Part shown: in pieces, positions 4,864-39,895 of the stretch | Numbering within the stretch: the first letter of the stretch is position 1 | Layout of the letters: every line of letters begins with the position of its first letter | Virus record (IMG/VR): IMGVR_UViG_3300024518_003743 | Coordinates: 1-62,867 of that record | Direction: 5' to 3' (one strand) | Length of the DNA stretch: 62,867 nucleotides | Source: a virus | The notes under the pieces: generated by a model | Databases searched by the model: none | Seen by the model: the letters and a program-made list of their open reading frames with translations, nothing else | What the model was told of the DNA's origin: nothing | Made by a program: the position numbers and the translations under genes

Positions 4864-5874
4864 ATGGGAACACTAATAACGAATAAACACGGACTTCCTG
4901 ACGCTATAGTTAGAGCCGTAATGGTGGACAAGCACCGAACCTATGGAGACATCTCAGTTACTCAACTTATCGATGCTCCCCAAGTAAGAATCCTAAAACG
5001 ACAGAACGACTTTGAAGTAGACGCCATGGACATGATATGGGCCGTCATGGGCACAGCCGTGCACAAGGTTGTCGAGCTTGGAGAGATTAACCAGGTGGAA
5101 GGTCAGAAGCTGTTCGAAGCCAAGGCGGTCCTAGAAGACATGGGGCAGGAGAAGGGCGCTGCATACATCCAAAAGATTATTGAAGAGAACTTCCCGGACG
5201 CATTGAATCCTGATGTCCTAATGGAGAAATCTCTTACCATTGAGGTCGAAGGTATGGTCATTTCCGGCACCCTCGACAAATACACCAAGTCATTAGAGAA
5301 GCTTTCCGACTACAAGAACTGTAGTGTATGGATGGCTATCTTCGAAGAGTCCAAAAAGAAGTGGTACGCGCAGCTCAACACGTACGCATACATGCTTCGA
5401 ATGAACGGACTCCCAGTTAAAGAGGCTGAGATTGTCGCCATTTTCCGCGACTGGTCTCCTAACGGCCTAATGCGAAGCAGAGACTACCCAAAGCACCAAG
5501 TTCAAACGATTCCCATCCAGCTCTTTGATGACGCTACAATGGACAAGTACCTCCGAAAGAGAGTCAACATCCACAAGCAGGCTCTTCTAGGTAACGTAGC
5601 TCAATGTACAGGAGCTGAGCGATGGTCTACCGAATCCAAGTACGCTGTAATGAGAAAGGGCTACAAGAAGGCTGTGAAGCTTTGCGCTTCTATGGCATAC
5701 GCTGACCAGTACATGCACGAGAACCGGAACAGGTATTCTGATATGTATGTGCAGCACCGACCGGGGGAAGACAAACGATGTGAGAGATGGTGTCCAGTGA
5801 AGGACAAGTGTCCACAGTATCAAGGAGCATTGAATAAGATCGCTGAAGACACTAGCGATGGAACTATTAAATAA
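4864..5874 (+). CDS. PD-(D/E)XK nuclease, RecB/Cas4-like
   Basis: A 336-residue nuclease of the RecB/Cas4 type. Motifs in order: GTAVHKVVELGE (about residue 61), SGTLDKY (catalytic Asp, about 137), LSDYKN (D-x-K, about 150) and QLNTYAYML (motif QxxxY, about 170). The C-terminus has CERWCPVKDKC (C-x3-C-x5-C), reminiscent of the iron-sulfur cluster Cys triplet of Cas4/AddB; a fourth ligand could be C in QCTGAERW. The next gene is an SMC/RecF-like ATPase, so the two probably act together on DNA ends in recombination. Confidence 0.85.
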   Translation: MGTLITNKHGLPDAIVRAVMVDKHRTYGDISVTQLIDAPQVRILKRQNDFEVDAMDMIWAVMGTAVHKVVELGEINQVEGQKLFEAKAVLEDMGQEKGAAYIQKIIEENFPDALNPDVLMEKSLTIEVEGMVISGTLDKYTKSLEKLSDYKNCSVWMAIFEESKKKWYAQLNTYAYMLRMNGLPVKEAEIVAIFRDWSPNGLMRSRDYPKHQVQTIPIQLFDDATMDKYLRKRVNIHKQALLGNVAQCTGAERWSTESKYAVMRKGYKKAVKLCASMAYADQYMHENRNRYSDMYVQHRPGEDKRCERWCPVKDKCPQYQGALNKIAEDTSDGTIK

Positions 5875-5892
5875 CCGACAACAAACGACTAA

Positions 5893-7212
5893 ATGCAAGA
5901 AGAAGGTATCAAAATACTCAAGGCTGAGATTACGAATTTCAAGAACATCTCTCACAAGACAGTAGTCTTCGAAGGGCGCTCAGCTATTATCATCGCTCCA
6001 AATGCCGGAGGCAAGTCCAGCCTTATCCAGGCGATTCAATCTCCTATCAACTCCAAAATAATCCCTCTGCAACCAGTTAAGGAAGGTGAGGAAAGAGGCT
6101 CAGTAGAGCTTCTAGTGGGCGGTAAGTTCAAAGGAGAGAGCGTCAAATACAACATTGGCCTATACTTCTCCCCTGAGCATCAGAAGGGGCGTATCACTAT
6201 TACCAACGAAGACGGGGGTAAGGTTCCCGGCGGTAAGAGTGTTATTAACGACATTGTAGGCAACATCAGCTTCAACATGATGGAGTTCCTTAGGCTGGCT
6301 CGTACCGACGCTGGCGGAGTTTCCGACGCTGGTCGTAAGAAGCAGGTGGAGATCCTAAAAGCCTTACTTCCTGATGAGGTTGTCGATAAAATGGCAGAGC
6401 TTGACGTTGAGCGTAAGAAGGTTTACAATGAGCGGTCAACAGTCAATGCAGAGGTAAAGGTTATGAAGACCAACCTCGAAGGGCATGAATATACACTGGA
6501 AGACATTGAGAACTACTCGACCAAGAAGGACGGCGAGGCTATCAGAACTCAAATTAACGGGCTTTCCACCTATATCGAGAAGCACTCGAAGGCTACCTCA
6601 GCTCAGGCTAGGTTCATGGAGACTATAAGCTTCAAGGAAGAGCAAATAGCCTGCCTTCAGAAAGAGCTGGACGTGGCTAGACATAATCTAAACACTACCA
6701 ATGAATGGCTCCAGAAGAATGAGAAGCCAAGCATCGGGTACCTATCAGCTCAACTCAAGGACATCGATGACCACAACGCAATCTGTGATGAAATTGCCAA
6801 GCTAGAGAAGTCTAGGTCCGACATGGACACTAAAAGCGCTGAGTCCGACAAGAAGACTGAGCGAATGAAGGAGATTGACAAGGAGAAGGCCGAAGTGTTT
6901 GCTTCCAGCCCTCTACCAGTTCCCGGATTAGCGTTCGACGAGAACATGGTTACCTACAAAGGACTTCCTTTGGATGAAGACCAGCACTCTACCGCTATGC
7001 TTATAGGGATAGGTATTCGAATCGGGATGGCCATGAATCCAAACCTCAAACTACTGGTCATCAAGGACGGCTCGCTCCTGGATCGTCAGACGCTGAGATT
7101 CATCATGAAGATTTGCGAAGAGCAAGGCTACCAAGTCCTAATCGAGAAAGTTGATTTCGAAGGCGAGAACGAAGAAGTAACAGTTGAATTTACAGAATCA
7201 GAAGAGATATGA
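5893..7212 (+). CDS. RecF/SbcC-like AAA ATPase
   Basis: A 439-residue ABC/SMC-type ATPase. The start KILKAEITNFKNI followed by the Walker A APNAGGKSSL (about residues 35-44) is typical of RecF, SbcC and Rad50 proteins. The centre (about residues 165-330) is coiled coil. The C-terminal lobe has LLVIKDGSLLD, resembling a Walker B/D-loop in which Lys-Asp replaces the usual Asp-Glu. It directly follows the nuclease gene and overlaps the next gene as ATGA. It may be an SbcCD-like or RecF-like partner of that nuclease. Confidence 0.75.
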   Translation: MQEEGIKILKAEITNFKNISHKTVVFEGRSAIIIAPNAGGKSSLIQAIQSPINSKIIPLQPVKEGEERGSVELLVGGKFKGESVKYNIGLYFSPEHQKGRITITNEDGGKVPGGKSVINDIVGNISFNMMEFLRLARTDAGGVSDAGRKKQVEILKALLPDEVVDKMAELDVERKKVYNERSTVNAEVKVMKTNLEGHEYTLEDIENYSTKKDGEAIRTQINGLSTYIEKHSKATSAQARFMETISFKEEQIACLQKELDVARHNLNTTNEWLQKNEKPSIGYLSAQLKDIDDHNAICDEIAKLEKSRSDMDTKSAESDKKTERMKEIDKEKAEVFASSPLPVPGLAFDENMVTYKGLPLDEDQHSTAMLIGIGIRIGMAMNPNLKLLVIKDGSLLDRQTLRFIMKICEEQGYQVLIEKVDFEGENEEVTVEFTESEEI

Positions 7213-7622
7213 AAGCTATAAGAGACAAGATTGACCTATCCATCCACTTCATGACGAAGATTGGAATCAACACTAAATACGGCGGACTAGCCCAGATAGA
7301 GCTCGAGAGAGCCAACAACTGGGTGACTCAGCTCTACCATATCAGCAAGCTCGACTATCCGAGCCACGACCAGACTGGTATTGAGTTTCCCGAGGACTAC
7401 AGTAAGTTCGATTACATCAAGGACAATCGCAAGAGAATCCAAGATACTGTCAACGAACTCGTGAAGCTGTCCGTCTCTAACCCACAGGTTCAGATGATTT
7501 CTATGCAAATCATGACAGCCCTAATGGAAGCGAAAATGTGGCTGGGGAATCAGTTAGACATGGAGACTAAAATTCAAGCGCTTTCAGGAGGGTCTATTGC
7601 CCCTTCTCACACTGACAAATAA
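7209..7622 (+). CDS. hypothetical protein
   Basis: A 137-residue, mostly helical protein with no recognised domain. ATGA overlap with the ATPase gene indicates translational coupling. It is placed between recombination and helicase genes, so an accessory role in DNA metabolism is possible but not shown. Confidence 0.6.
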   Translation: MKAIRDKIDLSIHFMTKIGINTKYGGLAQIELERANNWVTQLYHISKLDYPSHDQTGIEFPEDYSKFDYIKDNRKRIQDTVNELVKLSVSNPQVQMISMQIMTALMEAKMWLGNQLDMETKIQALSGGSIAPSHTDK

Positions 7623-7638
7623 TATTCTTACTAGGCCA

Positions 7639-9354
7639 ATGCAACCATTCGATATACTCGACCGATACAGGGTGCGCCTGTTTAAGAACCACTGGCTAGA
7701 TAATGAGTTTGAAATAGCTCATTGTCTAGGCTTTGAATTAAACGGGAACATCATTACTGTAGACATCAGAAGGACTTACCCTGAAGCTCTACTTGAGTTC
7801 ATCAAGACCTCCTTCTCTATAGTAATGCTTAGCGCTCAGTATCAGGCTTATCGGACCGGATTTTTCAATCATCTCAAGAAGATGTATGTGGATAGTCGAA
7901 ACGAGTTCAAAGCGAACTACGAGGCAAAGCTGAATTATCCCAACGATCTATTCATGCACCAGGGACACACGCTGGCGGTGAGCATCTACAATCAATGGAA
8001 CTACTGGGCTTTCGAACAAGGGCTCGGTAAAACGATCACCTCAGCAACCCTCTCGAAGTCCATGTCGGTGCCAAGGACAATCATTATATGCCCAGCGCTG
8101 GTGAAGTGGAACTGGTTCCATAACATGACTGATGACTGGGGGTTCAATCCTATTCTATGGACGATACTTGATAGCAAGAAGAACAAGTGTGTATACGCTT
8201 TCCGCGAACGGTTTGTAGTAATCAACTACGAGATGATTAGCAAGTTCTTCGACTACCTCAACAGAGACGTCATAGGACACATCATCATCGATGAATGTCA
8301 TTACATCAAGAACCACAAGACCAACAGGTTCAAAGCTGTTGAGAAGCTGGTCAGAAACAATCCTAAAGCTAGGGTTACTCTTCTTTCTGGTACTCCAGTT
8401 ACAAACCGGTCGATTGACTACTTCGCGTACTGCAAGCTTGCTGGCCATCCTTTAGGTAAGAACTTCGCTAAGTTCAAAAAGGATTATTGCCTGAGTAGTT
8501 CGACTAGAGGAGGCAACAAGGTCAGTGGGTCAAAAAACATTGGTGACCTAAGAATCAAGATGTCCAACTTCATGATTCGAAAGAAGTCAGAAGAGTGTAT
8601 TGATTTACCGGCCTTGATTATCAAGAAATACTACTTCGATGTAGGCGAGCTGTCCTCAGAGTACAACGATGCTTTGGAAGAGCTCTACATGGCCAAGAAG
8701 AAGTACGAGTCTGCAGAGCAGAAAGAGAAGGCCAAGCTTCGTCTCACGATGAGCGCTAACATCCACTCACTCAACAGGATAATGGCCACCAGCAAAGTGC
8801 AGCCCATCAAAGACCTCATCAATGAGATTAGAGCTGAAGGGCGCAAGGTGGTTGTTTTCTCAGGATATACAGACCCGCTCAAGATGCTCGAACAGGAGTT
8901 TTTAGGCAACTGCGTCCGTATCGCCGGAGATGTAGGCTCCCACAAGAGACAACAGCTCATTGACAAGTTTAAGAAGGAAGATGACTGCTTCCTGTTCCTG
9001 GGGAATTTCCAGGCTGCAGGAATCGGGATTAACCTGACCAATGCCAATGATGTGATATTCATGAACTTCCCTCTTACTCCTGACCAGCTAGAGCAGCCAT
9101 ACAAGCGTTGCCACAGGATAGGCCAGAAGGAAGCTGTTCGGGTTTATTACACGATCGGTAAAGAGACTATCGATGAGCATGTGTTCCGAATTATCGTGGA
9201 CAAGAAGCGAGACATTGACGAACTCGTTGACAAAGGAAAGCAGGGAGTTGTTCATTATGACAACCTCCAGGGACAGCTATTCAGTAGCCTGTTCAATGAT
9301 TACGAGAAGATGAAAGGCATCCAATCGACAACACCACAATTTCAAAAAGTATGA
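7639..9354 (+). CDS. SNF2-family DNA helicase/translocase
   Basis: A 571-residue superfamily 2 ATPase of the SNF2 type. Motifs: QGLGKT (Walker A, about 127), IIIDECHYIKN (DEAH-like box, about 218), LLSGTPVTNR (motif III, about 250) and QLEQPYKRCHRIGQKEAV (motif VI, about 490). The frame is open to a TTG at 7597 inside the preceding gene, but the ATG at 7639 just after that stop is a better start. Near the C-terminus is QGQLF (544-548), which fits a sliding-clamp-binding pentapeptide. Likely role: DNA remodelling during replication or recombination. Confidence 0.92.
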   Translation: MQPFDILDRYRVRLFKNHWLDNEFEIAHCLGFELNGNIITVDIRRTYPEALLEFIKTSFSIVMLSAQYQAYRTGFFNHLKKMYVDSRNEFKANYEAKLNYPNDLFMHQGHTLAVSIYNQWNYWAFEQGLGKTITSATLSKSMSVPRTIIICPALVKWNWFHNMTDDWGFNPILWTILDSKKNKCVYAFRERFVVINYEMISKFFDYLNRDVIGHIIIDECHYIKNHKTNRFKAVEKLVRNNPKARVTLLSGTPVTNRSIDYFAYCKLAGHPLGKNFAKFKKDYCLSSSTRGGNKVSGSKNIGDLRIKMSNFMIRKKSEECIDLPALIIKKYYFDVGELSSEYNDALEELYMAKKKYESAEQKEKAKLRLTMSANIHSLNRIMATSKVQPIKDLINEIRAEGRKVVVFSGYTDPLKMLEQEFLGNCVRIAGDVGSHKRQQLIDKFKKEDDCFLFLGNFQAAGIGINLTNANDVIFMNFPLTPDQLEQPYKRCHRIGQKEAVRVYYTIGKETIDEHVFRIIVDKKRDIDELVDKGKQGVVHYDNLQGQLFSSLFNDYEKMKGIQSTTPQFQKV

Positions 9355-9551
9355 AATTTGAATTAGAAAAATGGAAGTCTTTGCTCGGTAAAACCGTAAG
9401 AGACGGAAATGGGAAGTTTGGCACCTTAAAGGGGCTAACACTTGACGGAGACCTGTTAGTAAATGAATTTTGGTGGTATCACGACCAAGTAAATGAATTC
9501 GTAGACCCTAACCAAACAAAATTATTCGAAGATGAAGATAACGGCCAATAG
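9351..9551 (+). CDS. small protein with a clamp-binding-like C-terminus
   Basis: A 66-residue protein lying directly upstream of the sliding-clamp gene and overlapping it by 20 bases; it also overlaps the helicase stop as ATGA. The N-terminal 45 residues are a small beta-rich domain (KTVRDGNGKFGTLKGL). Residues 55-59, QTKLF, match the QxxLF clamp-binding pattern and are followed by an acidic tail. It may load onto or modulate the phage or host clamp; this is inference from motif and position. Confidence 0.6.
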   Translation: MKFELEKWKSLLGKTVRDGNGKFGTLKGLTLDGDLLVNEFWWYHDQVNEFVDPNQTKLFEDEDNGQ

Positions 9552-10680
9552 AGAGTCACTCGTAAAAGTCCTCGACGTTGTAGCTCGTGGGATTGAAAAG
9601 ACAACTATTCACGCTTGGGAATGCCTTTACATGACCGTAAAGGGAGACAAGTGCTACATATACTCGAGGTCTTCGGACATGCAAATCAAAGGATACATCA
9701 CAGTTGAATCTAGTGAAGACTTTGATATGTGTGTTCCGGCCCAGGTGTTCTGCCAAACCATTAGGCTTCTAGACTGTGAGAACGTTATAATCACTTCGAA
9801 GGTAACTAAGAAGGAAGGCTCTGCAGACCACTACATGACCATCATTTCTGTCAAGGGCCAGAAGAGAAAGTATCGAATCTCCAGCATTAACCCGAAAGAG
9901 TTCTCGGTAGTCACCATGGACAAGGAGAAACTTAAAGGTTTCCCGATCTCAGGAGAGGCGTTCGTAGGAGCCATGACAACATGTAGCCCGATTGTGAACC
10001 CGAAAGACCTTCGTGAGATGATGTCAGGAGTGTCTATAAAGACCGTAGACGGCGTTGTTGAGGTTTCAGCTACAGATGGAACCGTGATATCCAGAATGGG
10101 CCTACACGTCGAAGAAGAGATTCCAGAGATGATGATTCCAAAGCGTACAGCCATGATGTTGGACGGTGTTGATATTTCCCCGCAAATCAAAGTAGGAACG
10201 GATGGCAACAGCGTTCTAGTTCAGAACGGACCAATTACATTCATCGCTAAGCTCCTATATGGGAAGTATCCACCAGTGAAGGAGTTCTGGAACTTCCTCA
10301 AGAAGGACAACTTCGTGTGTATATCCCGAGTTGAGATGATGAACACCCTCAAACGACTCAACCTGTACTCGAAGAATGAATTCAACTCGACTAAAATGGT
10401 TTCAAAAGAAGGAGTCATAGCCCTTACGGCTGTGAACGAATTCGAGGAGAACTACGCATACGAGGAGCCGGAGATAATATCCAACACGCTCGTTGATTGT
10501 GCTACCGCCTTCAACTCTAGATACATGCTCACTGCTCTCGACAAGATGGAGTCCGATGAGATTCTTGTTCACACTGAAGGCAATAAATCTTCTATATTCC
10601 TATTCGAAAAGAACGGGTCAAAAACACCAGAGCAGATGTGGCTAATAGCCCCTGTGTCAATAGGGAAAAGAGATAATTAA
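9532..10680 (+). CDS. dnaN: DNA polymerase III beta subunit-like sliding clamp
   Basis: A 382-residue protein with the length and pattern of bacterial beta clamps: the start MKITANRESLVKVLDVVARG, a first-domain LYMTVKGDKCYIYSRSSDM, and the second-domain region SGVSIKTVDGVVEVSATDG close to the conserved LRxVATDGHRL-type segment. The clamp encircles DNA and tethers polymerases. The phage has no polymerase gene here, so the clamp probably works with host Pol III or directs phage repair proteins. It shares one base with the next start (taATG). Confidence 0.88.
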   Translation: MKITANRESLVKVLDVVARGIEKTTIHAWECLYMTVKGDKCYIYSRSSDMQIKGYITVESSEDFDMCVPAQVFCQTIRLLDCENVIITSKVTKKEGSADHYMTIISVKGQKRKYRISSINPKEFSVVTMDKEKLKGFPISGEAFVGAMTTCSPIVNPKDLREMMSGVSIKTVDGVVEVSATDGTVISRMGLHVEEEIPEMMIPKRTAMMLDGVDISPQIKVGTDGNSVLVQNGPITFIAKLLYGKYPPVKEFWNFLKKDNFVCISRVEMMNTLKRLNLYSKNEFNSTKMVSKEGVIALTAVNEFEENYAYEEPEIISNTLVDCATAFNSRYMLTALDKMESDEILVHTEGNKSSIFLFEKNGSKTPEQMWLIAPVSIGKRDN

Positions 10681-11603
10681 TGGATCACGCAAGATGTAAC
10701 ATATTCCCCAACGTATGGCCTAAGGCATGTACACACACCGTGTACGCCCTTCGGGTTATCGAGGGAATCCAAGAGGGGAGGTGGAAAGAGCCGATTGAAC
10801 GGCTAAGAAGCATAGACCCGAAGGACAAGGATACTGTGAAGAAAGTAAAGTTCAGGCTCCCATGTGTTACGTTTTCCGGAGTGTTCTCCCCTGAGAGATT
10901 CGACGACAAGCTCATTGAGTACTCTAACATGGTTGTTTTAGATGTTGACGATATCAGCAAAAAGGATCTCGTTCGATTCAAGAGGGAGCTCATGAATGAT
11001 GAGCATGTAGCTTGTTTCTTTGATGGACCAACCAAGGGTGTTAAGATTTTGTTCCATGTATCAACGGAAGCCAAGGAGCACAAACTAGCTTTCTTCGCCC
11101 TTAGCAACTACATCAAGGACAACTACGATATCATTATCGATAGGAGCGGGAAGAACGTGTCCAGGCTATGCTTCGTAAGCTACGACCCTGACCTGTACTA
11201 CAATCCTAGCTACAAGATATTCGAAATCAAGCACGATGATTCTCAGAGGGAGATGTTTAGCAGGGTGTTTTCCCCGGCCAAGCTTCCTAGCAGTGTCGTT
11301 ATGTCATTCGATATGAGCCACATTTTCGATACTTGCATCAAGATTGTCAAGGCGAGCAGCGTAGGGTCGTATCACCAAGGGAATAGGAATAATTACATTT
11401 TTGCCCTAGCTTGCACATTGAATCGTGCAGGCATGGATGAGGAGCACGCTTTAGCGATGATTTGGAACAAGTACTCGTCGCTGGACTACAAGGAGCTCCA
11501 GGGGAGCGTAGGCAGTGCGTACCGCCACAACAAAAGTGAATTTGGATCCAAACCAATCACTGAGAGAAGGTCAAACCAAGGAGATTTTTTTAGAGTAAGA
11601 TGA
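10680..11603 (+). CDS. VirE-N/BT4734-type primase-like protein
   Basis: A 307-residue protein with the N-terminal domain common in Bacteroidetes phages and mobile elements: VTFSGVFSPERFDDKLIEYS, MVVLDVDDISKK, and FFDGPTKGVKILFHV, a primase/polymerase-like core with an acidic VDD pair. The C-terminal HQGNRNNYIFALACTLNRAG region resembles primase C-terminal helical modules. The last residues include QGDFF (300-304), a clamp-binding-like motif. Likely role: primer synthesis or initiation of phage replication next to the clamp. Confidence 0.82.
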   Translation: MDHARCNIFPNVWPKACTHTVYALRVIEGIQEGRWKEPIERLRSIDPKDKDTVKKVKFRLPCVTFSGVFSPERFDDKLIEYSNMVVLDVDDISKKDLVRFKRELMNDEHVACFFDGPTKGVKILFHVSTEAKEHKLAFFALSNYIKDNYDIIIDRSGKNVSRLCFVSYDPDLYYNPSYKIFEIKHDDSQREMFSRVFSPAKLPSSVVMSFDMSHIFDTCIKIVKASSVGSYHQGNRNNYIFALACTLNRAGMDEEHALAMIWNKYSSLDYKELQGSVGSAYRHNKSEFGSKPITERRSNQGDFFRVR

Positions 11604-12133
11604 TACACATAGGAATAGACCCCGGAGCAGACGGGGCAATAGCAGTTCTAGACGAAAACGGGAAGATACTTTACCGCGCAGGGTTCCCCAAAATTGGCAA
11701 CAAGTTCGACCCCCACGGTCTGAACAAGATTATCAAAAAGACAAAACAGAAGTATCCCGACCACAACTTCACCCTGGAGCTGATAGGGATTATATTCGGA
11801 GTCAGCAAGAGTTCAATGGTTTCCCTCTCAAAGAATTGCGGACAAATTGAAGGGATTCTAATTGGTAACGAATGCCGTCATGCCATGGTTCCTCCAAAGG
11901 AATGGCAGAAAGAAATGTGGAAAAACATCAAACCAATCCGAAAGGCTTCGACCAAGAGAAAGAAGGACGGAACCCCAGCTATTGGCTCGGTAAACACCAA
12001 AGCAACATCCCTATTAGCCGCCAAAAGACTATGGCCAACAGAGGACTTCTTGAGAACCGAAAGGTCTACCAAGCCTCACGATGGGATTATAGACGCTCTA
12101 CTACTTGCCGAATATTCTCGACGGAAGTTTTAA
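11600..12133 (+). CDS. ruvC: RuvC-like Holliday junction resolvase
   Basis: A 177-residue RNase H-fold nuclease. The four expected acidic residues are visible: D7 in GIDPG, E60 in FTLELIG, and D161 and D165 in KPHDGIIDALLLAEY. RuvC-type enzymes cut branched DNA, in phages to resolve recombination or clear replication forks before packaging. ATGA overlap with the primase gene supports a replication and recombination operon. Confidence 0.92.
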   Translation: MIHIGIDPGADGAIAVLDENGKILYRAGFPKIGNKFDPHGLNKIIKKTKQKYPDHNFTLELIGIIFGVSKSSMVSLSKNCGQIEGILIGNECRHAMVPPKEWQKEMWKNIKPIRKASTKRKKDGTPAIGSVNTKATSLLAAKRLWPTEDFLRTERSTKPHDGIIDALLLAEYSRRKF

Positions 12134-13235: not shown

Positions 13236-13784
13236 ATGAATAGAGATGACTACACCGCTGTAGGCGGCGGAAACGGCACCACGTGGGAGCCAAAGCAAAC
13301 TGGAAAGAAAAAGGACAACAACCTTGTTGCTCTTGCTGCAGACGAGAACTCTTGGGTTCAAGGGTACTACCTTGGGACTGAGCACGACCAAGGTCCGGAC
13401 AAGAACTCACAGGTTCACAAACTTAAGCTTGTAAAGGCTGGTAACCCGGCTCACCTTGCTGGAGACCCAGCAGATACAAACGGAGAAATCAGCATCTGGG
13501 GTACAGGTGTGCTAAACGACAAGTTCACCAAGGTTCCTGTAGGAACGTCAGTGATTGTCGAATGGAAAGGGAAGCAGAAGCCCAAAAAACAAAGTGGTAG
13601 AGAATACCATGGGTGGGAGCTTCTTCAGAACCCTAACGATACAATCGATTCAGGGAACGCTTTCAAGCCTAGCACAGAGCCAGCTCCGGCTGTTGCCCCT
13701 ACAAGTGAGGCAGCTCCTGTCGAAGGTGCTCCTGCAGTCGCAGGGGCTCCAGCGGTCAACCCTGAAGACGACCTACCATTTTAA
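13236..13784 (+). CDS. ssb: single-stranded DNA-binding protein
   Basis: A 182-residue protein. The first 130 residues are beta-rich and OB-fold-like (WVQGYYLGTEHDQG, VPVGTSVIVEWKGKQK). An Ala/Pro-rich linker of about 40 residues ends in the tip PEDDLPF, the hallmark acidic C-terminus of bacterial SSB that recruits replication and repair proteins. The ATG follows an A-rich leader. It coats ssDNA during phage replication and, through the tip, can call in host proteins. Confidence 0.85.
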   Translation: MNRDDYTAVGGGNGTTWEPKQTGKKKDNNLVALAADENSWVQGYYLGTEHDQGPDKNSQVHKLKLVKAGNPAHLAGDPADTNGEISIWGTGVLNDKFTKVPVGTSVIVEWKGKQKPKKQSGREYHGWELLQNPNDTIDSGNAFKPSTEPAPAVAPTSEAAPVEGAPAVAGAPAVNPEDDLPF

Positions 13785-13823: not shown

Positions 13824-14201
13824 ATGACTAGATTACATTGTAAAGTAAAAGACAGCGATGACCTGAAGGATTTATTCGAAGGGATTTGCGAAGACCTGCA
13901 GCTTGACTTGGAAGAGACCAAGAAGAAATGCAAGGTGAAGGTCAAGGTATCCCTGGCCTCGATCTGCCAAATTTGTGAAGCCAATGACTTGTTTATGCAA
14001 GTGGACTTCCCAAACAACAAGATTTCTGTTTACCTGAAGGATTTTGCGCCTAGCGCATTAGCTCCTGAAAATAACGAGATCCTTGGGCCTGTGCTTGAGG
14101 AGCAAACAGAAGAAGTTGTTGATGAAACTGTAGAAGAACCAACGTCTGATATCCCTCCAGTAATGGAGATGGATGATGATGAGGACGATCTACCGTTTTA
14201 A
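13824..14201 (+). CDS. unknown protein ending in a second SSB-type tip
   Basis: A 125-residue protein with a Cys- and Lys-rich N-terminal domain (KKKCKVKVKVSLASICQIC) and an acidic linker ending MEMDDDEDDLPF. The tip is nearly identical to that of the SSB encoded just upstream, but the N-terminal domain is not an evident OB fold. It may be a diverged second SSB or a decoy that binds SSB-tip partners. It is the last gene of the early operon and stops two bases before the convergent late operon ends. Confidence 0.75.
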   Translation: MTRLHCKVKDSDDLKDLFEGICEDLQLDLEETKKKCKVKVKVSLASICQICEANDLFMQVDFPNNKISVYLKDFAPSALAPENNEILGPVLEEQTEEVVDETVEEPTSDIPPVMEMDDDEDDLPF

Positions 14202-23055: not shown

Positions 23056-23415
23056 TTAAAAGCAACTAAAATCTCCCGCACAACCTCCGGCGAGAGCTAA
23101 CACTAATGGGAGGTTCGCGTCTTGACCGTCGGCTCCAGGGACTCCCTGAGCTCCGGTGTCACCCTTGTCCCCTTTGTCTCCTTCGGCTCCTGGAGGGCCT
23201 TGAACTCCTTGTGAGCCCGCTCCTCCAGCGGGTCCTTCAGGTCCAGCTACTCCAATCGGACCTGGATCGCCCAAGTCGCCCTTGTCCCCTTGAGCTCCTT
23301 GCTCTCCTTGAGGACCAATTTCTCCTTGATTACCTTGATCACCTTTTTCTCCCTGAGGTCCAATGTCACCTCTGTCACCTTTCGGTCCTATTGGTATTTT
23401 ACAATCGTCGCTCAT
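23056..23415 (-). CDS. collagen-like protein 1
   Basis: A 119-residue protein, nearly all Gly-X-Y repeats (for example [16 protein letters not shown]) after a short head [10 protein letters not shown] and before a Cys-containing C-terminus ([10 protein letters not shown]). Such repeats form collagen-like triple helices in phage fibres. The head is almost identical to that of the adjacent collagen-like protein, indicating duplication. Confidence 0.85.
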
Positions 23416-23921
23416 TACTGACCAATTAATACTGTTGTTATTGCCTGAGGGCCTGTAGTTCCTACTATGAAGTTGGCCTCTAGATCACCTGTAGTTTTGT
23501 TTACTCTAACGTCTGCTACCATTCCGGCCAGAACAGCGTCTGTGCAGAATGACAAAGCGATACCATCGTCAAACCAAATTTTGTACGTATACCTCAACGA
23601 AGCCTGTGTAATAGACAGTGAAGCAAAGTTTGCGGCCACCATGATTGTGACGTAAATCCCAGTCGTGGGCACCACAATGGTTTGTGTAATCGATACTACC
23701 GAACCTGCTGGACCCTGAGGACCCTGAGGACCGTTAGCTCCTTGTATTCCTTGAGCTCCGTCGTTTCCTTGAACACCCTGAATACCCTGGGCTCCAGAAT
23801 CTCCGTCGTCACCTTTTGGCCCGTCAAAACCTCTCGGCCCCATAGTTCCGGATTTGCCGGTTGCTCCCGGGTCTCCTTTGTCCCCTTTCGGACCCACTGG
23901 TATTTTGCAGTCGTCACTCAT
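23415..23921 (-). CDS. collagen-like protein 2
   Basis: A 168-residue protein: head [10 protein letters not shown], about 60 residues of Gly-X-Y repeats ([16 protein letters not shown]), then a C-terminal beta domain ([20 protein letters not shown]) that is probably the trimeric knob. Its stop shares a base with the start of collagen-like protein 1. Likely a short fibre or decoration protein. Confidence 0.85.
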
Positions 23922-24592
23922 TATATGTTCTCAGAAACAACAGTTGTTCCTAGAATGAAGTTAATTAGGTTTCCGCCAGTGTTTCCAATAATTCTAACAT
24001 TGAGAACCCCTGCACTCATCTGCATCCTGGCAGTGAATGGCTGAGGAAGCGTTGAAATGGCTGTCGCATCATTTACATACGGCTCAACTCCTTGACTGAA
24101 GAACTCTCTGTCTGCAGAAAGTATTCCGGTCAAATCAAGAGCGAAATCAACCACAGGCTTGGTTCCAGGAACTGTTTCGCTAGTATTCAATGAAATATTC
24201 AGTCTTATCAACATAGAGAAGTTCGGGTCTAGCCCTCCCCCTCCAGCATAGATTGGCTGAGAAATTACGTTTGATGTGTTGATAGATTGCGCGTTCAAGT
24301 CCGCAGGCGTCGCCGCTGTAGCAGTGTATGTGCTGTTTACAGCCGAGCCTATGGTAGGAACCAAATCGATGTTTAACCCTCCAGCAGGCTGGATATTGAA
24401 TTTCACACCTTGGGCTATAGCTCCATCGGCTCCGGCTGGTCCAATAGGGCCTTGAGCACCTGGATCACCTGTTCTGCCTTGACGGCCAGGAGGGCCTTGA
24501 CCACCTTGAGGACCTCTTTCGCCTTGCTTGGTGATTACCTTCTTTTGGACACAATCGCATCCCGACACCTTTCTACATTTAGGGCAGCTCAT
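23921..24592 (-). CDS. collagen-like protein 3
   Basis: A 223-residue protein. A start nine codons upstream would overlap the previous gene; the ATG at 24592 gives MSCPKCRKVSGCDCVQKK, a head with two Cys pairs and possible metal or disulfide site. About 45 residues of Gly-X-Y follow (GERGPQGGQGPPGRQGRTG), then a 130-residue beta-rich knob. Probably a host-contact fibre. Confidence 0.82.
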   Translation of the reverse strand: MSCPKCRKVSGCDCVQKKVITKQGERGPQGGQGPPGRQGRTGDPGAQGPIGPAGADGAIAQGVKFNIQPAGGLNIDLVPTIGSAVNSTYTATAATPADLNAQSINTSNVISQPIYAGGGGLDPNFSMLIRLNISLNTSETVPGTKPVVDFALDLTGILSADREFFSQGVEPYVNDATAISTLPQPFTARMQMSAGVLNVRIIGNTGGNLINFILGTTVVSENI

Positions 24593-24593
24593 A

Positions 24594-25223
24594 TTATACC
24601 TTCTTAAGTTTTTTAACAACTAGCCTTTCTAGTATGCCATCGCCAACACCGTCGTTCATGTTGATTTTGAATGTGTTTGTCACAGCGAAGTTGTATGGAG
24701 TCACATCGAACAATGAAACTGCAGGGACAGCGAACACACCGTTAATATCGTTCAGGTCGAAGTAACCCTTAAAGTTGCTTCCTTCTTTCATAAGCATTCC
24801 TTTTACCATAAAGGTGCTCGAGTCTTCAACAACAGTCTTAGCTAAGAATACAGCTCCAGAAGAGTTGTCTGTTATAGAGAAGTCTGATGCAGAGTTGGCC
24901 ATCGTTATGACAGCCTCAATTTCAATAGCGTCTCCATCGGTTACCAACGTGTTAGCTGGAAGCGAAAAGAACGCATCTGTAGGTGAGCTTGTTTGGCTAA
25001 GCTGGAAATGAATAATAGAAGCTCCAGCTTCTCCCGTCGCTCCGGCTGGGCCTGCTGGGCCTGCTGGGCCTTCTGGTCCGCCCGCTGGTCCTTCTGGGCC
25101 TGCTGGGCCAGGTTCTCCCGGAGGTCCCGAAGGTCCTTGAGCTCCGCGAGGTCCGCGAATACCGGTCTTGGTCACCACTTTTACGTGGCACTCTTCACTT
25201 GAACAACATCCCTTATCACACAT
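24594..25223 (-). CDS. collagen-like protein 4
   Basis: A 209-residue protein with the Cys-rich head MCDKGCCSSEECHVKVVTK, about 50 residues of Gly-X-Y (GPRGAQGPSGPPGEPGPAG) and a C-terminal beta domain ending in a basic tail (VVKKLKKV). It shares head style and plan with collagen-like protein 3, the next gene, so they are likely paralogues. Confidence 0.85.
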   Translation of the reverse strand: MCDKGCCSSEECHVKVVTKTGIRGPRGAQGPSGPPGEPGPAGPEGPAGGPEGPAGPAGPAGATGEAGASIIHFQLSQTSSPTDAFFSLPANTLVTDGDAIEIEAVITMANSASDFSITDNSSGAVFLAKTVVEDSSTFMVKGMLMKEGSNFKGYFDLNDINGVFAVPAVSLFDVTPYNFAVTNTFKINMNDGVGDGILERLVVKKLKKV

Positions 25224-34575: not shown

Positions 34576-35426
34576 TACAGTCCAAATGTTTGAGGAACGT
34601 CAATAGCAGGCGTAGCCGCTTGCTTATCAATACCTAAGCGAATGTTGTCAATCGTTTGGTTTTGAATCTCTTGTGCGTTCGGGTTAATACCAGGTGTCGC
34701 TAAAGGTGGAGCTCCAGCGTTTTCGCCCGCTCCTCCACCAAGGAGTCCAGACACGCTTTGAATGATGTTTCCTATGTCTCCAGCGACTCCGGTTGCTCCG
34801 GTTGCTCCGGCTGCAGGTGTGGCTGCGCTTGAGGCTGCTGGATTTTGGCCAGGTAAAGTTCCTTGGAGCGCTGCTAACGAGCCTAAGTTTTGTAAGGCGT
34901 CCGTTCCCGCCTGAGCAGAGGCCGCTTTGGCTCGGTTTTGATTAAGCAATCCGAGCTCTAATGTTCTTTGGCTTATTCTGGTTCCAAGCTGCTGAGTAAG
35001 CTGTTCTACGAAAGGAAGCCTTTGTTGTCCCTGAACTACCGCTTGGTTTGTAGCTGCCTGGGTTCCCTTTTGTGCTTTAATCAATGCGTTTACCGTGCTT
35101 CCCACATCTCCGCCTGTTGACCTAGCTATACGCCCTTGAGTTGTAGCCCCAACTTTCTGGGCCTCCCCAATGGCGCCTTGAGTGGCCGCGTCTGAGCCAG
35201 TAGAAATGTTTTTTCTAATCTGGTTAAGCTCGTTGATTCTTTGTTGCTCCAAAGGATCTACAAGCCCAGGAGCAAGCTGATTCGCTTTTCTGCCCTGAAC
35301 ACCAGATTCTATAAGGCCTCCAGCCGTCTGCCCAATCTGAGCTCCAACTGCTCCTCCAACGCCCGGTGCGATAGTTGTTCCAGCTACGCCTCCTAAAATT
35401 GCGCCTATTGATTGTCCGTTTGCCAT
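34575..35426 (-). CDS. small ejection/pilot-like protein with glycine zipper
   Basis: A 283-residue Gly/Ala/Gln-rich protein. The N-terminus has a glycine-zipper membrane segment (GAILGGVAGTTIAPGVGGAV), the middle is Gln-rich helix, and residues about 195-215 are Ala/Gly repeats. This matches small internal proteins of podoviruses that insert in the host membrane during DNA delivery. It is between the nozzle protein and the larger internal proteins. Confidence 0.65.
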   Translation of the reverse strand: MANGQSIGAILGGVAGTTIAPGVGGAVGAQIGQTAGGLIESGVQGRKANQLAPGLVDPLEQQRINELNQIRKNISTGSDAATQGAIGEAQKVGATTQGRIARSTGGDVGSTVNALIKAQKGTQAATNQAVVQGQQRLPFVEQLTQQLGTRISQRTLELGLLNQNRAKAASAQAGTDALQNLGSLAALQGTLPGQNPAASSAATPAAGATGATGVAGDIGNIIQSVSGLLGGGAGENAGAPPLATPGINPNAQEIQNQTIDNIRLGIDKQAATPAIDVPQTFGL

Positions 35427-38400
35427 TACTTAATCGGTTTATATTGAAGAACAGTTTCTACAACCTTAAAGTCTTCCTCAAAAATATGAATTACTTTGCA
35501 GAATAGCAATCTAGCTTGTACCCGATCTCTGGTTGCTGAAACCGAAAGGTCCTTTCTAGGAATCTGCTGACCCCATCCGTCGTATTGCTTAAGATACAGC
35601 GGACCTTGAATTCCTGGGTCTAGTGCACAGACTAAATCTCTGTCCTCATCCAAAAACTCTATTCTACTTGGTTTTTGTTCGCCTCTCTTTCCGGTCATGA
35701 CCTCGAAGCGAATGTATTCTTTTTCTACGGCTGGTGAAGGGGAATAGTTCGTTATAAGCGAATATTCTATCGGGCCTCCATTTATTTCAAACCCTCTTTC
35801 GAGCTTGTAGGTCTCAAGACCTCTAAATCCGTACATGTCGTTGTCGCTGAACAGGTAGGTGTCGAACTTATAGTCAAACGACCCCAGCCAGTGATTAGTG
35901 TCTTGAGCAAACACAAACGTTTCCGAGTCTACCGAATCTCGCTCAGTTTCTCCTTCTACAAGAAATTCCGGAAGCCTCTGAGGGTCAAGCTGTAACCAAT
36001 ACTCATTGTGGTTATGGTTGACGCCTCCAGCAATGCGATCAAGATATCCAGCCCTCATTCTGATTAATACAGGGTTAAGCCTGGAGAAGTAGGTGTCCTT
36101 CGCTATGTCTTTTACCACGTTGCTCATTAGCCTATACACGGAGTGGTTGTTAGGAATGTAAAGAGCTTCTTGTTTAACTCTTCCGTCCTCAGTTATAATG
36201 TCCATGGTGCCTTCGCCCATTCCTCTCCACATTTCATCGCTAGAGCCAACCTCATGGTCTAGCCAGTACTGACCTCCAACAAACCTGTCAGAAGCAAGTG
36301 TTGATAAGTCGTTAGCCTCAAGGCTAGAAAGTATTGTTTTGTTGGTCAGGATAAGGCATATCCCTGACTCACAAATAGCGTACAGGTTGTCGCCCTTTCC
36401 TGGGGTTGTTGCATCCCAAGCTTTCTTGATTTCGCCGTCATCATCGTCTAGGTCAAATCGATTCAGCGAAAGGAAAGTCTTTAAACCGGGAGAGTCTTGT
36501 TGATTTATCGCTCTAGACAGGCTCCATGTGACTCCAGTACAGAAGTCGTTCTCCTCTTCGAATCCAAAGTCCGGCTTTGACAAGAACTCAATAGGCCCTC
36601 TAACAGCATAATCAAGATTGATGTTCTGCATGAATCTAAGACCTCCAAACTTCCAAATACTATATTCAAGAGGGTAGTCTTCGAAATAGTCTTCGAACAT
36701 GTTGTTGTCTGACGCAATATCTTCAATGACCCCGGTCGCGAAGCTTGAGTTGTCAAATCGATTCGGACGCATAATGTAGTGAGTCAGCGGGAAGTACTGG
36801 TCAGAAGTTGCCCCGTTGTGGGCATAGTGAACTGCCACCCGGCTTTCGCACGCGAACATAATGCACAGTTGTCGGATATACCCAAGGCTTCCCTTGTTTA
36901 TGTCCTGAATCTTGTTAATCCCTGTGGTTCTAGCAACGATGTACTGACGAGGGTTGATCTCGTACTTTCTAAACGGGAACCCAATGTTGAACACGAACTG
37001 AGTGTCTTCAGCGTTGTCTGAAGCATCTGCCTCACGATCGATTGGAGAGAAGATGGCTTCTCCTACCGTGCTATCTCCTCCGAATACTCGTATTGGCCGT
37101 CTATTGTCATACCTGACTAATATTTTCTGGTCTACCGTTGGGTAGAAATTTGGGACGTTGAATTCGACTGTAAACGCCGTGTCTCCTGCGTTTGTGTGCG
37201 TGTACAATCCAACAACCTCGTTCCCAAGTGCTGCGGCATAGAATCCGTTTGTTGTAATGTCTGTTAAGATTGCTGTTACCTGAGCAGCCGTCAAGAACGT
37301 GCTATCCATAAACACTTCAATGTTTCCGGCTCCGTCTTGGAGGTAGACAAACACCTCATCAGCAGCTCTTGGACCTGTAGAAGACAAATCAGGAATACAG
37401 TCTTCCCACCTTTCGTCTACAAGCTCAAAAAATTGGTCAGGAGTTCCGTCAGCTTGGCCGATAATGCTCTCTACCTTCTGGTAGTGCCCTGTTCCGTAAT
37501 ACTGGTCAATATTTTGATCGATTACATTCTTTCCGTCCTGAACGATGTTTATGATGTACATCGGCTCAGTAAAATCCTTCAGTCCAGCATCGTCGAAGTC
37601 GTTGTTTCCGGTTCCGCCAGAGCCTCCGGCATTGTACACGTTTCCTGTAAGTGAAAGCTCGTAGTACACACCTCTGCCCTCCGTAACAGAAGCTATGCTG
37701 TCAATACTTATAAGAGTATCTCCTCCGTCAGGACCAACAAAAGCTCCTCCGCCAGCAGCGTGAGAATTTCTGTACTTGTTGTATGCTACATATCTGTTTC
37801 CTCCAGAACCAACACCCATTCCCGGGTCTTCTCCTGGGTTTATCTGGCCTTCGTCATGAAGCACCCGCGCGTAGGTAATCATATCTACAAGCCTGTCTCG
37901 TGCCGAGAGCAGTGAGTTCTCTTCAAATGAATACACCTCCGAGAAGAAGCCCAGAGGAGAGACCACCTGAACGCTGTAGTTCTGAGGGTTGCTCGAAATA
38001 TCATCAATAACCGACTGGCTGATTATTCCAGCCTCAATGTCTGGTGAGAAGAACCAAAACTTGTCTTGGTCTTTCGTGGCCGCCGATGCGTTACCAGCAG
38101 CATTAAAGTCTCCTTGGTTTAGGGCATACGATCCAATTCCTTGGCATACAACCCTCCCTGCAGGTGCTGTTCTAACTACTGAAAATGCTTTTGCCCACGA
38201 CGGAAGATTGCTAATACCTCCAATGGCAACTCCATGGGCATAATAGTTTGGCGCGAAGCCCTCAGGGTTGTACGCTCTAGTTACCGGACCAGCATCTGCC
38301 TCGAAATTGACTTGGTAGTTGTGGTCTCCGGTTGAGTCGTTCTGGTCGGTAGGCCTGTATGGGTCATAGCCAATTTCATCGCCACCAACGAATAGTCCAT

Positions 38401-39895
38401 GCCCAGAATCCGGACACCCAAGGCTATTTACCTTTCCTTGAGACTTTGATCCGTCGTCTAGTATGTTTTGGAACCCACATTTGTCCGTCTTACTGACAGC
38501 ATCTTCCAAATCGAATATCTCATGCGTCTGAGTTACGGCACTCTGCAGGTTTGCTGCCTCGGCAGTTCCGAAATACGAGAGCAGTTGAGAGTCGACGTCT
38601 GCCTCAGCTCTTCTGTTCGGTATTTGGAAGTTCTGAATCCCAGCATCGTCCTCGGCAAAACCTCGACCGCCAAGTGCGTCGAATAGGTTTACAGCAAAGC
38701 TGAACCTCTCTCCGCCGGTGTAGTTTTTGTAGTACGTGTGATTCACCGGGTCGTTGTGCCCTGCTTTTCCGAGCTTCTGAACGATTGGGAAAATCTTCTT
38801 GCCATTGAACTCGTCAAATACAAGGTTAGTCTCTTTTGAAGCGGTGCTGTAGTTCATTAGAACTATCTTCTTGTCGTGGTATCTGATTGCTTTCGCTTTC
38901 TCGATAAACGACAATTCGCTTTCTCCTTCTCCGTCAGCAAGGGTGTCTTCTACGTTTGATTGAATCGGGTCAACAAACTCTCGAACAGATATCTCCCCTG
39001 GAGAAACCTCAAGTTTTGCGATTACCTCTCCTTGCGGAACAAAGTCAAGACCTCCAGCAGCCTGATAGGACACTCGACGGATCTCAATAAAATCATAGTT
39101 AACCAGATTCGTAATTCGAAACTTAAGCTTAATCCCGAAGCTCGTTGGAGCTGTTACGTCAGGACTGTCGCCATAACTCTTCGTATACGGGTACTGGTTG
39201 CTTCCTGTTCCCGACCCTTGAAGCACAGGAATTGGAGGGGTTTGGTGCCCCCAGTTTGTTCGGTCTCCTTCGTCATTAACGTATCTAAGAGAGTACTGAT
39301 AAGAGCCTATAGGAAGTCCGCCTCCGCCCCCGACATTCTCAAGACCTGTAAAAACAGGGATGTCAAGTGGAGAATCTAGATTTACCGTGTATAAAGCTGG
39401 ATTGAAGTTCGTGAAATACTTGTCAGGGTCTAGCGTGAGTGAGTCGATGATGTCCTGAATGTTGAATATCATCGGAGTCGTGTTATTGTCGGTGATATAC
39501 CACTCTCCTCCTTTACAGTTCTCGTTTCTGTCACACTGGATAGGGAAGTCCACTAGCCAAGGCATGTCTGGGGACTGACCCATTATAACGCCGTCGATAC
39601 GGATGATTGGAGCCTCTGCCCCATTTCTATCCACCCAGATTTCAACAATGTTCTTGTTAATATCTTTTTCACCTATGCAAACCCAATCGCCAGGAATGTT
39701 CTGAGCTGGGAACTCAACCTCTTCTCCGCGAATCTTAACGTGTGATCGTTTTCCGCCAGTAGAATCGGATATGCGACCGTTCTTACTGTCGTAGTATTCT
39801 CCGTCATTATCGGCACCAGAAAGCTCAGGGTCAATGTCAACATTCGCCCCTTTCCAGTTCGATTTTGCGTCTTTTGGATGGTGTTCCGTCTTCAT
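35426..39895 (-). CDS. tail nozzle / DNA-stabilisation protein
   Basis: A 1489-residue beta-rich protein placed directly after three ring-like proteins. The start (ELSGADNDGEYYDSKNGRIS) and early GDWVCIGEKDIN segment resemble the large stabilisation or tail tubular B-like proteins of crAss-like and P22-like phages, which form the tail muzzle as a beta-propeller-like hub. Size exceeds the usual 700-900 residues, suggesting added domains for host contact. Confidence 0.65.
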   Translation of the reverse strand: MKTEHHPKDAKSNWKGANVDIDPELSGADNDGEYYDSKNGRISDSTGGKRSHVKIRGEEVEFPAQNIPGDWVCIGEKDINKNIVEIWVDRNGAEAPIIRIDGVIMGQSPDMPWLVDFPIQCDRNENCKGGEWYITDNNTTPMIFNIQDIIDSLTLDPDKYFTNFNPALYTVNLDSPLDIPVFTGLENVGGGGGLPIGSYQYSLRYVNDEGDRTNWGHQTPPIPVLQGSGTGSNQYPYTKSYGDSPDVTAPTSFGIKLKFRITNLVNYDFIEIRRVSYQAAGGLDFVPQGEVIAKLEVSPGEISVREFVDPIQSNVEDTLADGEGESELSFIEKAKAIRYHDKKIVLMNYSTASKETNLVFDEFNGKKIFPIVQKLGKAGHNDPVNHTYYKNYTGGERFSFAVNLFDALGGRGFAEDDAGIQNFQIPNRRAEADVDSQLLSYFGTAEAANLQSAVTQTHEIFDLEDAVSKTDKCGFQNILDDGSKSQGKVNSLGCPDSGHGLFVGGDEIGYDPYRPTDQNDSTGDHNYQVNFEADAGPVTRAYNPEGFAPNYYAHGVAIGGISNLPSWAKAFSVVRTAPAGRVVCQGIGSYALNQGDFNAAGNASAATKDQDKFWFFSPDIEAGIISQSVIDDISSNPQNYSVQVVSPLGFFSEVYSFEENSLLSARDRLVDMITYARVLHDEGQINPGEDPGMGVGSGGNRYVAYNKYRNSHAAGGGAFVGPDGGDTLISIDSIASVTEGRGVYYELSLTGNVYNAGGSGGTGNNDFDDAGLKDFTEPMYIINIVQDGKNVIDQNIDQYYGTGHYQKVESIIGQADGTPDQFFELVDERWEDCIPDLSSTGPRAADEVFVYLQDGAGNIEVFMDSTFLTAAQVTAILTDITTNGFYAAALGNEVVGLYTHTNAGDTAFTVEFNVPNFYPTVDQKILVRYDNRRPIRVFGGDSTVGEAIFSPIDREADASDNAEDTQFVFNIGFPFRKYEINPRQYIVARTTGINKIQDINKGSLGYIRQLCIMFACESRVAVHYAHNGATSDQYFPLTHYIMRPNRFDNSSFATGVIEDIASDNNMFEDYFEDYPLEYSIWKFGGLRFMQNINLDYAVRGPIEFLSKPDFGFEEENDFCTGVTWSLSRAINQQDSPGLKTFLSLNRFDLDDDDGEIKKAWDATTPGKGDNLYAICESGICLILTNKTILSSLEANDLSTLASDRFVGGQYWLDHEVGSSDEMWRGMGEGTMDIITEDGRVKQEALYIPNNHSVYRLMSNVVKDIAKDTYFSRLNPVLIRMRAGYLDRIAGGVNHNHNEYWLQLDPQRLPEFLVEGETERDSVDSETFVFAQDTNHWLGSFDYKFDTYLFSDNDMYGFRGLETYKLERGFEINGGPIEYSLITNYSPSPAVEKEYIRFEVMTGKRGEQKPSRIEFLDEDRDLVCALDPGIQGPLYLKQYDGWGQQIPRKDLSVSATRDRVQARLLFCKVIHIFEEDFKVVETVLQYKPIK

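Follow-up and report, generated by a model that had tools for sequence, protein, structure and literature searches.

A predicted clamp-docking tail on a stand-alone primase encoded next to a phage beta clamp

Does a phage that carries its own sliding clamp also encode the proteins that dock on it? The question is raised by a stretch of viral DNA of 62,867 nucleotides (IMG/VR record IMGVR_UViG_3300024518_003743, positions 1 to 62,867; this whole stretch is called the window). Its DnaN-like gene (9532..10680, plus strand, 382 amino acids) is preceded by the genes for a SNF2-family helicase (7597..9354, plus strand) and a 66-amino-acid protein of no known family (9351..9551, plus strand) and followed directly by the gene for a stand-alone primase (10680..11603, plus strand, 307 amino acids). 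A sequence-only reading had noticed pentapeptides resembling those of bacterial beta-clamp partners near the C-termini of these three neighbours and had proposed a clamp-centred complex of helicase, primase and small modulator. From sequence comparisons and structure models we consider it, on balance, probable that a C-terminal motif tethers the primase, an archaeo-eukaryotic primase (AEP) and possibly a primase-polymerase (PrimPol), to the phage's own clamp and that the small protein probably shares the binding pocket. For these two partners the proposed complex is plausible, whereas recruitment of the helicase through its pentapeptide is not supported.

All three peptides were found as described. 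QTKLF (9513..9527, residues 55-59) lies in an acidic C-terminal tail, 7 residues before the end of the 66-amino-acid protein, QGDFF (11577..11591, residues 300-304 of 307) lies 3 residues before the end of the primase, and QGQLF (9268..9282) lies 23 residues before the end of the SNF2 protein, all on the plus strand. QGQLF corresponds to residues 544-548 if ATG 7639 is taken as the start (571 amino acids) and to residues 558-562 of 585 if the start is TTG 7597; the SNF2 gene, at 7597-9354, lies outside the interval 9351-11603 that had been quoted for the three neighbours.

The known clamp-binding motif is Q-aliphatic-x-[L/M]-[F/L] or a hexameric form, with Q being important but not essential, and its flanks are frequently acidic or located at a free C-terminus (PMC11139829). 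A scan for Q..[LMF]F over all window proteins revealed no excess (7 occurrences, against 4.6 expected from shuffling the proteins; P=0.17), which favours the explanation that the peptides are short-sequence coincidences in fast-changing tails, the tail of the small protein being a by-product of the overlapping clamp start. We consider this explanation rather unlikely, and the evidence bearing on it is given below. Within the last 40 residues, the motif is present in four open reading frames (ORFs) versus 0.63 expected from shuffled window proteins (P=0.003), the fourth being a 64-amino-acid minus-strand ORF that is probably spurious, and among 2,427 real ORFs from other phage loci, which serve as background, its frequency is 0.87% for the last 30 residues and 0.45% for the last 15. 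The C-terminal clustering of the three peptides is above chance; to separate the motifs, conservation in relatives was needed. Among all ORFs of the relatives described below, the strict motif was detected in the last 30 residues only in the small protein of locus L095 and in the primases of L095 and L105, all of which flank a clamp gene.

The primase tail and the pocket of the phage clamp

Related loci were found by scans with SNF2 alignments. Six of them (L007, L095, L096, L098/L101, L103 and L105) show the order SNF2, variable small gene, clamp and primase, and a fragment (L104) ends inside the clamp gene. Identity to the window SNF2 protein is 44% for L007, 53% for both L095 and L096, 59% for L098/L101, 40% for L103, 39% for L105 and 38% for the fragment. 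L098/L101 is a contig of a Flavobacteriales metagenome-assembled genome; in L098, SNF2 and clamp are separated by a long run of other genes, and in L104 and L105 the clamp start is overlapped by the SNF2 stop. Only two more, weaker matches (G016, G058) were obtained with the primase alignment in 46 genomes from the same order as the L098 genome. Three other records (L001, L003, L006) were rejected as relatives, being the same virus (100% over 12,130 nucleotides, a near-copy in IMG/VR), and therefore are no evidence of conservation. Two Staphylococcus phage clamp matches (20% identity) from unannotated records, one of them flagged unverified, were not used.

The gene that had been called dnaN-like encodes a true beta-clamp homologue. 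Its product matches all three Pfam clamp domains above cut-offs (DNA_pol3_beta 8.8e-14, _beta_2 1.5e-6, _beta_3 4.3e-9), PHROG_947 'DNA polymerase processivity factor' (2.7e-32) and many solved bacterial beta clamps (best 4.9e-15). In an alignment with E. coli DnaN (L093), positions belonging to the two subsites (I and II) of the peptide-binding pocket listed in PMC11139829 were compared. R152, T172, G174, P242, N320, Y323 and P363 are identical, L155, L177, V360 and M364 (E. coli beta numbering) remain hydrophobic, and H175, V247, M362 and R365 are replaced by T, F, A and S, respectively. By this comparison the phage clamp retains most of the pocket.

Tails were then compared for the six stand-alone primases that are complete at the C-terminus and encoded next to a clamp (window, L095, L096, L101, L007 and L105; 29-47% identity to the window primase). 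They end in NQGDFFRVR (window), NQTNMFRS (L095), NQQTFDLL (L096), GHGSLFD (L101), PTLGLDLTGLT (L007) and KQQNLF (L105). Q..[LMF]F is present within the last 15 residues in 3 of the 6 and [QH]..[LMF]F in 4 of the 6. Random reordering of the 15 C-terminal residues of every tail gave P values of ~8e-6 for at least three strict matches and ~1e-7 for at least four matches with Q or H, values that overstate the case because related tails are treated as independent. Even so read, the retention of tail positions among primases with diverged linkers (P ~1e-5 to 1e-7 with shuffled tails) argues against coincidence, as does the behavior of QREMF (11244..11258, plus strand, residues 189-193), an internal primase match from the motif scan that serves as an unconserved control: it is absent at that position in the relatives and was rejected as a second primase motif. 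In the AlphaFold model of the window primase, residues 299-307 have a predicted local distance difference test (pLDDT) value below 50 and form a predicted disordered tail. Sequences whose primase domain continues into a longer, fused C-terminal region (L103, L090, L091 and phage records L086 and L087) showed no such tail in the alignment. Sequence conservation and model together support the putative clamp-binding tail of the primase, which is the best-supported part of the earlier idea.

E. coli positions 320, 323 and 363 form part of subsite II, which accommodates the Gln (PMC11139829). At loci with Q in the primase tail these residues are N-Y-P (window, L096, L105) or S-Y-P (L095), whereas at loci without it they are D-L-A (L101), N-Y-K (L007) and D-N-S (L103); across the 7 loci an exact test gives 1/35 for residues that were picked after inspection. 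In L103, a primase fused to a helicase domain, lacking the tail motif, goes together with a degraded clamp pocket. That the tail Q accompanies N/S-Y-P of the phage clamp, although in a small sample, and that the tail-bearing genes adjoin the phage clamp gene, both speak against the idea that the tails target the host DnaN in order to gain access to the host replisome or to interfere with it, with the phage clamp being a separate tool. This idea, which we regard as improbable, is favoured by the generic nature of the motif and by the ability of clamps of different bacteria to bind the same ligands (PMC11139829). It is also favoured by the polymerase search: no match to DNA_pol_A, DNA_pol_B or DNA_pol3_alpha (PF00476, PF00136 and PF07733 only) was detected in the window record, which is possibly incomplete, so that host replication proteins may be needed. 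The same families gave no match in the records of L007, L103, L095 and L096, which are possibly incomplete as well.

What kind of enzyme would the tail bring to the clamp? The primase matches the Pfam families BT4734-like_N (7.2e-24) and PriCT_1 (9.1e-7), and BT4734-like proteins are a recognised AEP family (PMC5862659). Its model (pLDDT 84.6) has as nearest solved folds the RepB' primase (Foldseek E 2.7e-5) and the PrimPol of cyanophage S-2L (VIA Z 8.6, 139 residues, 3.9 A), the NrS-1 PrimPol being found lower on the list (VIA Z 6.4). D88, D90, K122 and D154 are invariant in 9 sequences. The AEP catalytic motifs hhDhD and hD are present (D88, D90 and D154), whereas motif II, sxH, is not conserved and K122 is invariant there. 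By sequence, the 'primase' is an archaeo-eukaryotic primase of the BT4734-like type and possibly a PrimPol; its likeness in fold to the S-2L and NrS-1 PrimPols is in itself no sign of DNA polymerase activity. A more far-reaching version, to which we give little credence, would make this AEP enzyme the phage's own replicative or gap-filling polymerase, processive through C-terminal docking on the beta clamp. The two proteins would then be a minimal replicase, in which clamp tethering replaces the helicase fusion of related primases.

The helicase peptide and the small upstream protein

The SNF2 protein (Pfam SNF2-rel_dom 6.9e-18, Helicase_C 1.1e-16; PHROG_62 1.8e-85) had been assigned a clamp-binding-like motif on the basis of QGQLF. 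In the alignment with four close relatives the corresponding peptides are SDTLI, PNELF, GNMMF and PGDLF, so that Q is replaced by S, P, G and P, respectively, in all four, and L103-L105 have no Q..LF at this position. In an AlphaFold model obtained with 30 sequences (mean pLDDT 86.9), residues 557-573 form a 17-residue helix with QGQLF at its N-terminal start, and only the hydrophobic face of this helix is conserved among relatives. The QGQLF match therefore looks like a coincidence, although the SNF2 helicase could bind the clamp by another surface. The same data weigh heavily on the proposal that the clamp is a docking site for all three neighbours and that helicase, primase and small modulator come together in one complex. 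It has in its favour that Q..[LF]F occurs near the C-termini of the products of three adjacent genes above the shuffled expectation, but the loss of Q in the close relatives, the missing motif in L103-L105 and the location at the helix start make it very unlikely.

For the 66-amino-acid protein no Pfam or PHROG match was obtained, and no credible homologue of its body was detected in phages, viral contigs or the L007 and L009 records; a match in L004 was rejected as chance, since it falls outside any gene and in a frame interrupted by stops. In L095 the same slot is occupied by a 173-amino-acid protein whose body has no visible similarity to the 66-amino-acid protein but which ends in PNQKELFDEDNGQ, to be compared with PNQTKLFEDEDNGQ in the window. 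The common tail reads PNQ(KE)LF-DEDNGQ in L095, the counterpart of QTKLF being QKELF; no other locus has a comparable tail. QTKLF fits the known motif at Q1, L4 and F5 and is followed by acidic residues, while T at position 2 is not aliphatic. Conservation of DEDNGQ says little because it is the other frame of the MKITxNR start of the clamp. The PNQxxLF codons, however, lie upstream of the clamp ATG, and over these 7 codons window and L095 differ in amino acids at the two free positions only, with P and L differing silently. From this single comparison it is plausible that QTKLF is a clamp-binding motif. Conservation in homologues, which the sequence-only reading had named as a check, thus upholds the primase tail, upholds the small protein in one comparison and fails for SNF2.

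Between SNF2 and clamp, different phages carry unrelated small genes (window 9351-9551, L095:9748-10269, L096:6778-7047 and L103:11626-11991), and in the window the small ORF overlaps the SNF2 gene by 4 nucleotides and the clamp gene by 20 nucleotides. Judged by these sequences, this slot would be a gene-replacement hot spot at a translationally overlapping junction. No small protein is present between SNF2 and clamp in L105.

Several observations weigh against a clamp-binding role of the two tails. QGDFF fits the canonical motif at Q1 and F5 only; F at position 4, where L or M is known, and G at position 2 mean that its affinity may be low, whereas relatives carry the canonical M or L at position 4 (QTNMF, QQNLF, HGSLF). 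Some relatives lack the motif or show a degenerate version of it: the L007 primase has no Q..LF tail and L096 only the looser form QQTFDLL, and no tail like that of the small protein is found in the slot of L096 (89 amino acids), L103 (121 amino acids) or L098. The comparison covers six or seven relatives that are related to one another, and the motif pattern definitions were in part relaxed after inspection. Furthermore, the coding sequence of the small-protein tail runs over the clamp's translation start, and the two free codons in L095 read AAGGAG, a ribosome-binding-like sequence, so that some of the tail conservation could be regulatory. This would fit coincidence, but the window tail keeps PNQxxLF without AAGGAG at that place.

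With these points taken into account, the scheme that we prefer, in which binding, its target and all biochemical roles are predicted, is as follows. The operon would provide a beta-type clamp together with a directly downstream encoded stand-alone AEP primase, possibly a primase-polymerase. The disordered C-terminal tail of the primase would insert its motif into the phage clamp's hydrophobic pocket, and docking would hold the primase at primed DNA or at the fork. The small upstream-encoded protein probably uses the same pocket via QTKLF, where it may act as a regulator or a competitor, and the SNF2 helicase would not be a motif-dependent partner.

The operon, its virus and comparable systems

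The clamp and its neighbours belong to a compact plus-strand replication operon that in the window extends from an exonuclease gene (4864-5874) over genes for an SMC-like ATPase (5893-7212), a 137-amino-acid ORF located between the ATPase and SNF2 genes, and the genes discussed above to a RuvC-like resolvase gene (11600-12133). In L095 a methyltransferase-type-looking protein (L095:7516-8010, VVFDPPHL) is encoded between ATPase and SNF2 and replaces the 137-amino-acid ORF. Where clamp-like ORFs follow other SNF2 genes (L120, L121 and L127), no comparable C-terminal motif was detected among the neighbours listed. At L121:3442-5757, a distantly related phage locus, an ORF with weak similarity to clamps (E 1.5e-8) comes directly after a SNF2 gene, and SNF2-clamp adjacency may be wider.

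Downstream of the operon, two adjacent proteins (13236-13784 and 13824-14201) both end in acidic residues followed by DDLPF, resembling the C-terminal tip of single-stranded DNA-binding protein (SSB), and the corresponding proteins of L007, L096 and L103 end in similar acidic tips. The first may be a phage SSB; neither product has a convincing family match. Several neighbouring minus-strand ORFs at 23056-25223 contain collagen-like Gly-x-y stretches near their N-termini. A 1489-amino-acid protein (35426-39895) matches the crAssvirus muzzle protein crAss_MUZ (PF25731, 4.5e-9), the product of a signature gene of crAss-like phages (Crassvirales), and a P22-like portal match is found at 45698-47992, which may point to a crAss-related podovirus. 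DnaB and PolA/PolB are common in crAss-like phages (PMC7886860), but neither was detected in the possibly incomplete window record, and among the searched records a DnaB_C match was obtained only in L103, within the fused primase.

As in bacterial Pol II, Pol IV and Pol III alpha, which have C-terminal beta-clamp-binding motifs (PMC11139829), a DNA-synthesising enzyme carries here a short Q-x-x-hydrophobic-Phe/Leu peptide at its free C-terminus or close to it, and has a cognate clamp of the beta type. Different from these polymerases, the enzyme with the peptide is an AEP primase, adjacent phage genes encode both partners and binding is predicted from sequence. With the AEP BT4734-like family and the PrimPols of S-2L and NrS-1 the window primase shares BT4734-like_N, PriCT_1 and an AEP-like fold, but it has no fused helicase domain, its gene adjoins a clamp gene and it carries a clamp-binding-like tail. 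The S-2L PrimPol is the only possible polymerase of its phage (PMC8065100), and 'clamp' is mentioned neither in that paper nor in the AEP family survey (PMC5862659). In T4, the clamp gp45 is likewise a hub for small phage proteins, gp33 and gp55, that bind via C-terminal motifs (PMC9690074); those partners are transcription factors, whereas the window encodes a clamp of the bacterial beta type and a small protein of no known family.

Phage-encoded bacterial-type clamps are little studied, and a combined literature search on them returned nothing. If the proposed docking is true, the conserved tail of the AEP primase would offer a phage with no recognised polymerase a concrete and testable means of organising its replication, and a short peptide would be available for asking whether a clamp can make a PrimPol processive.

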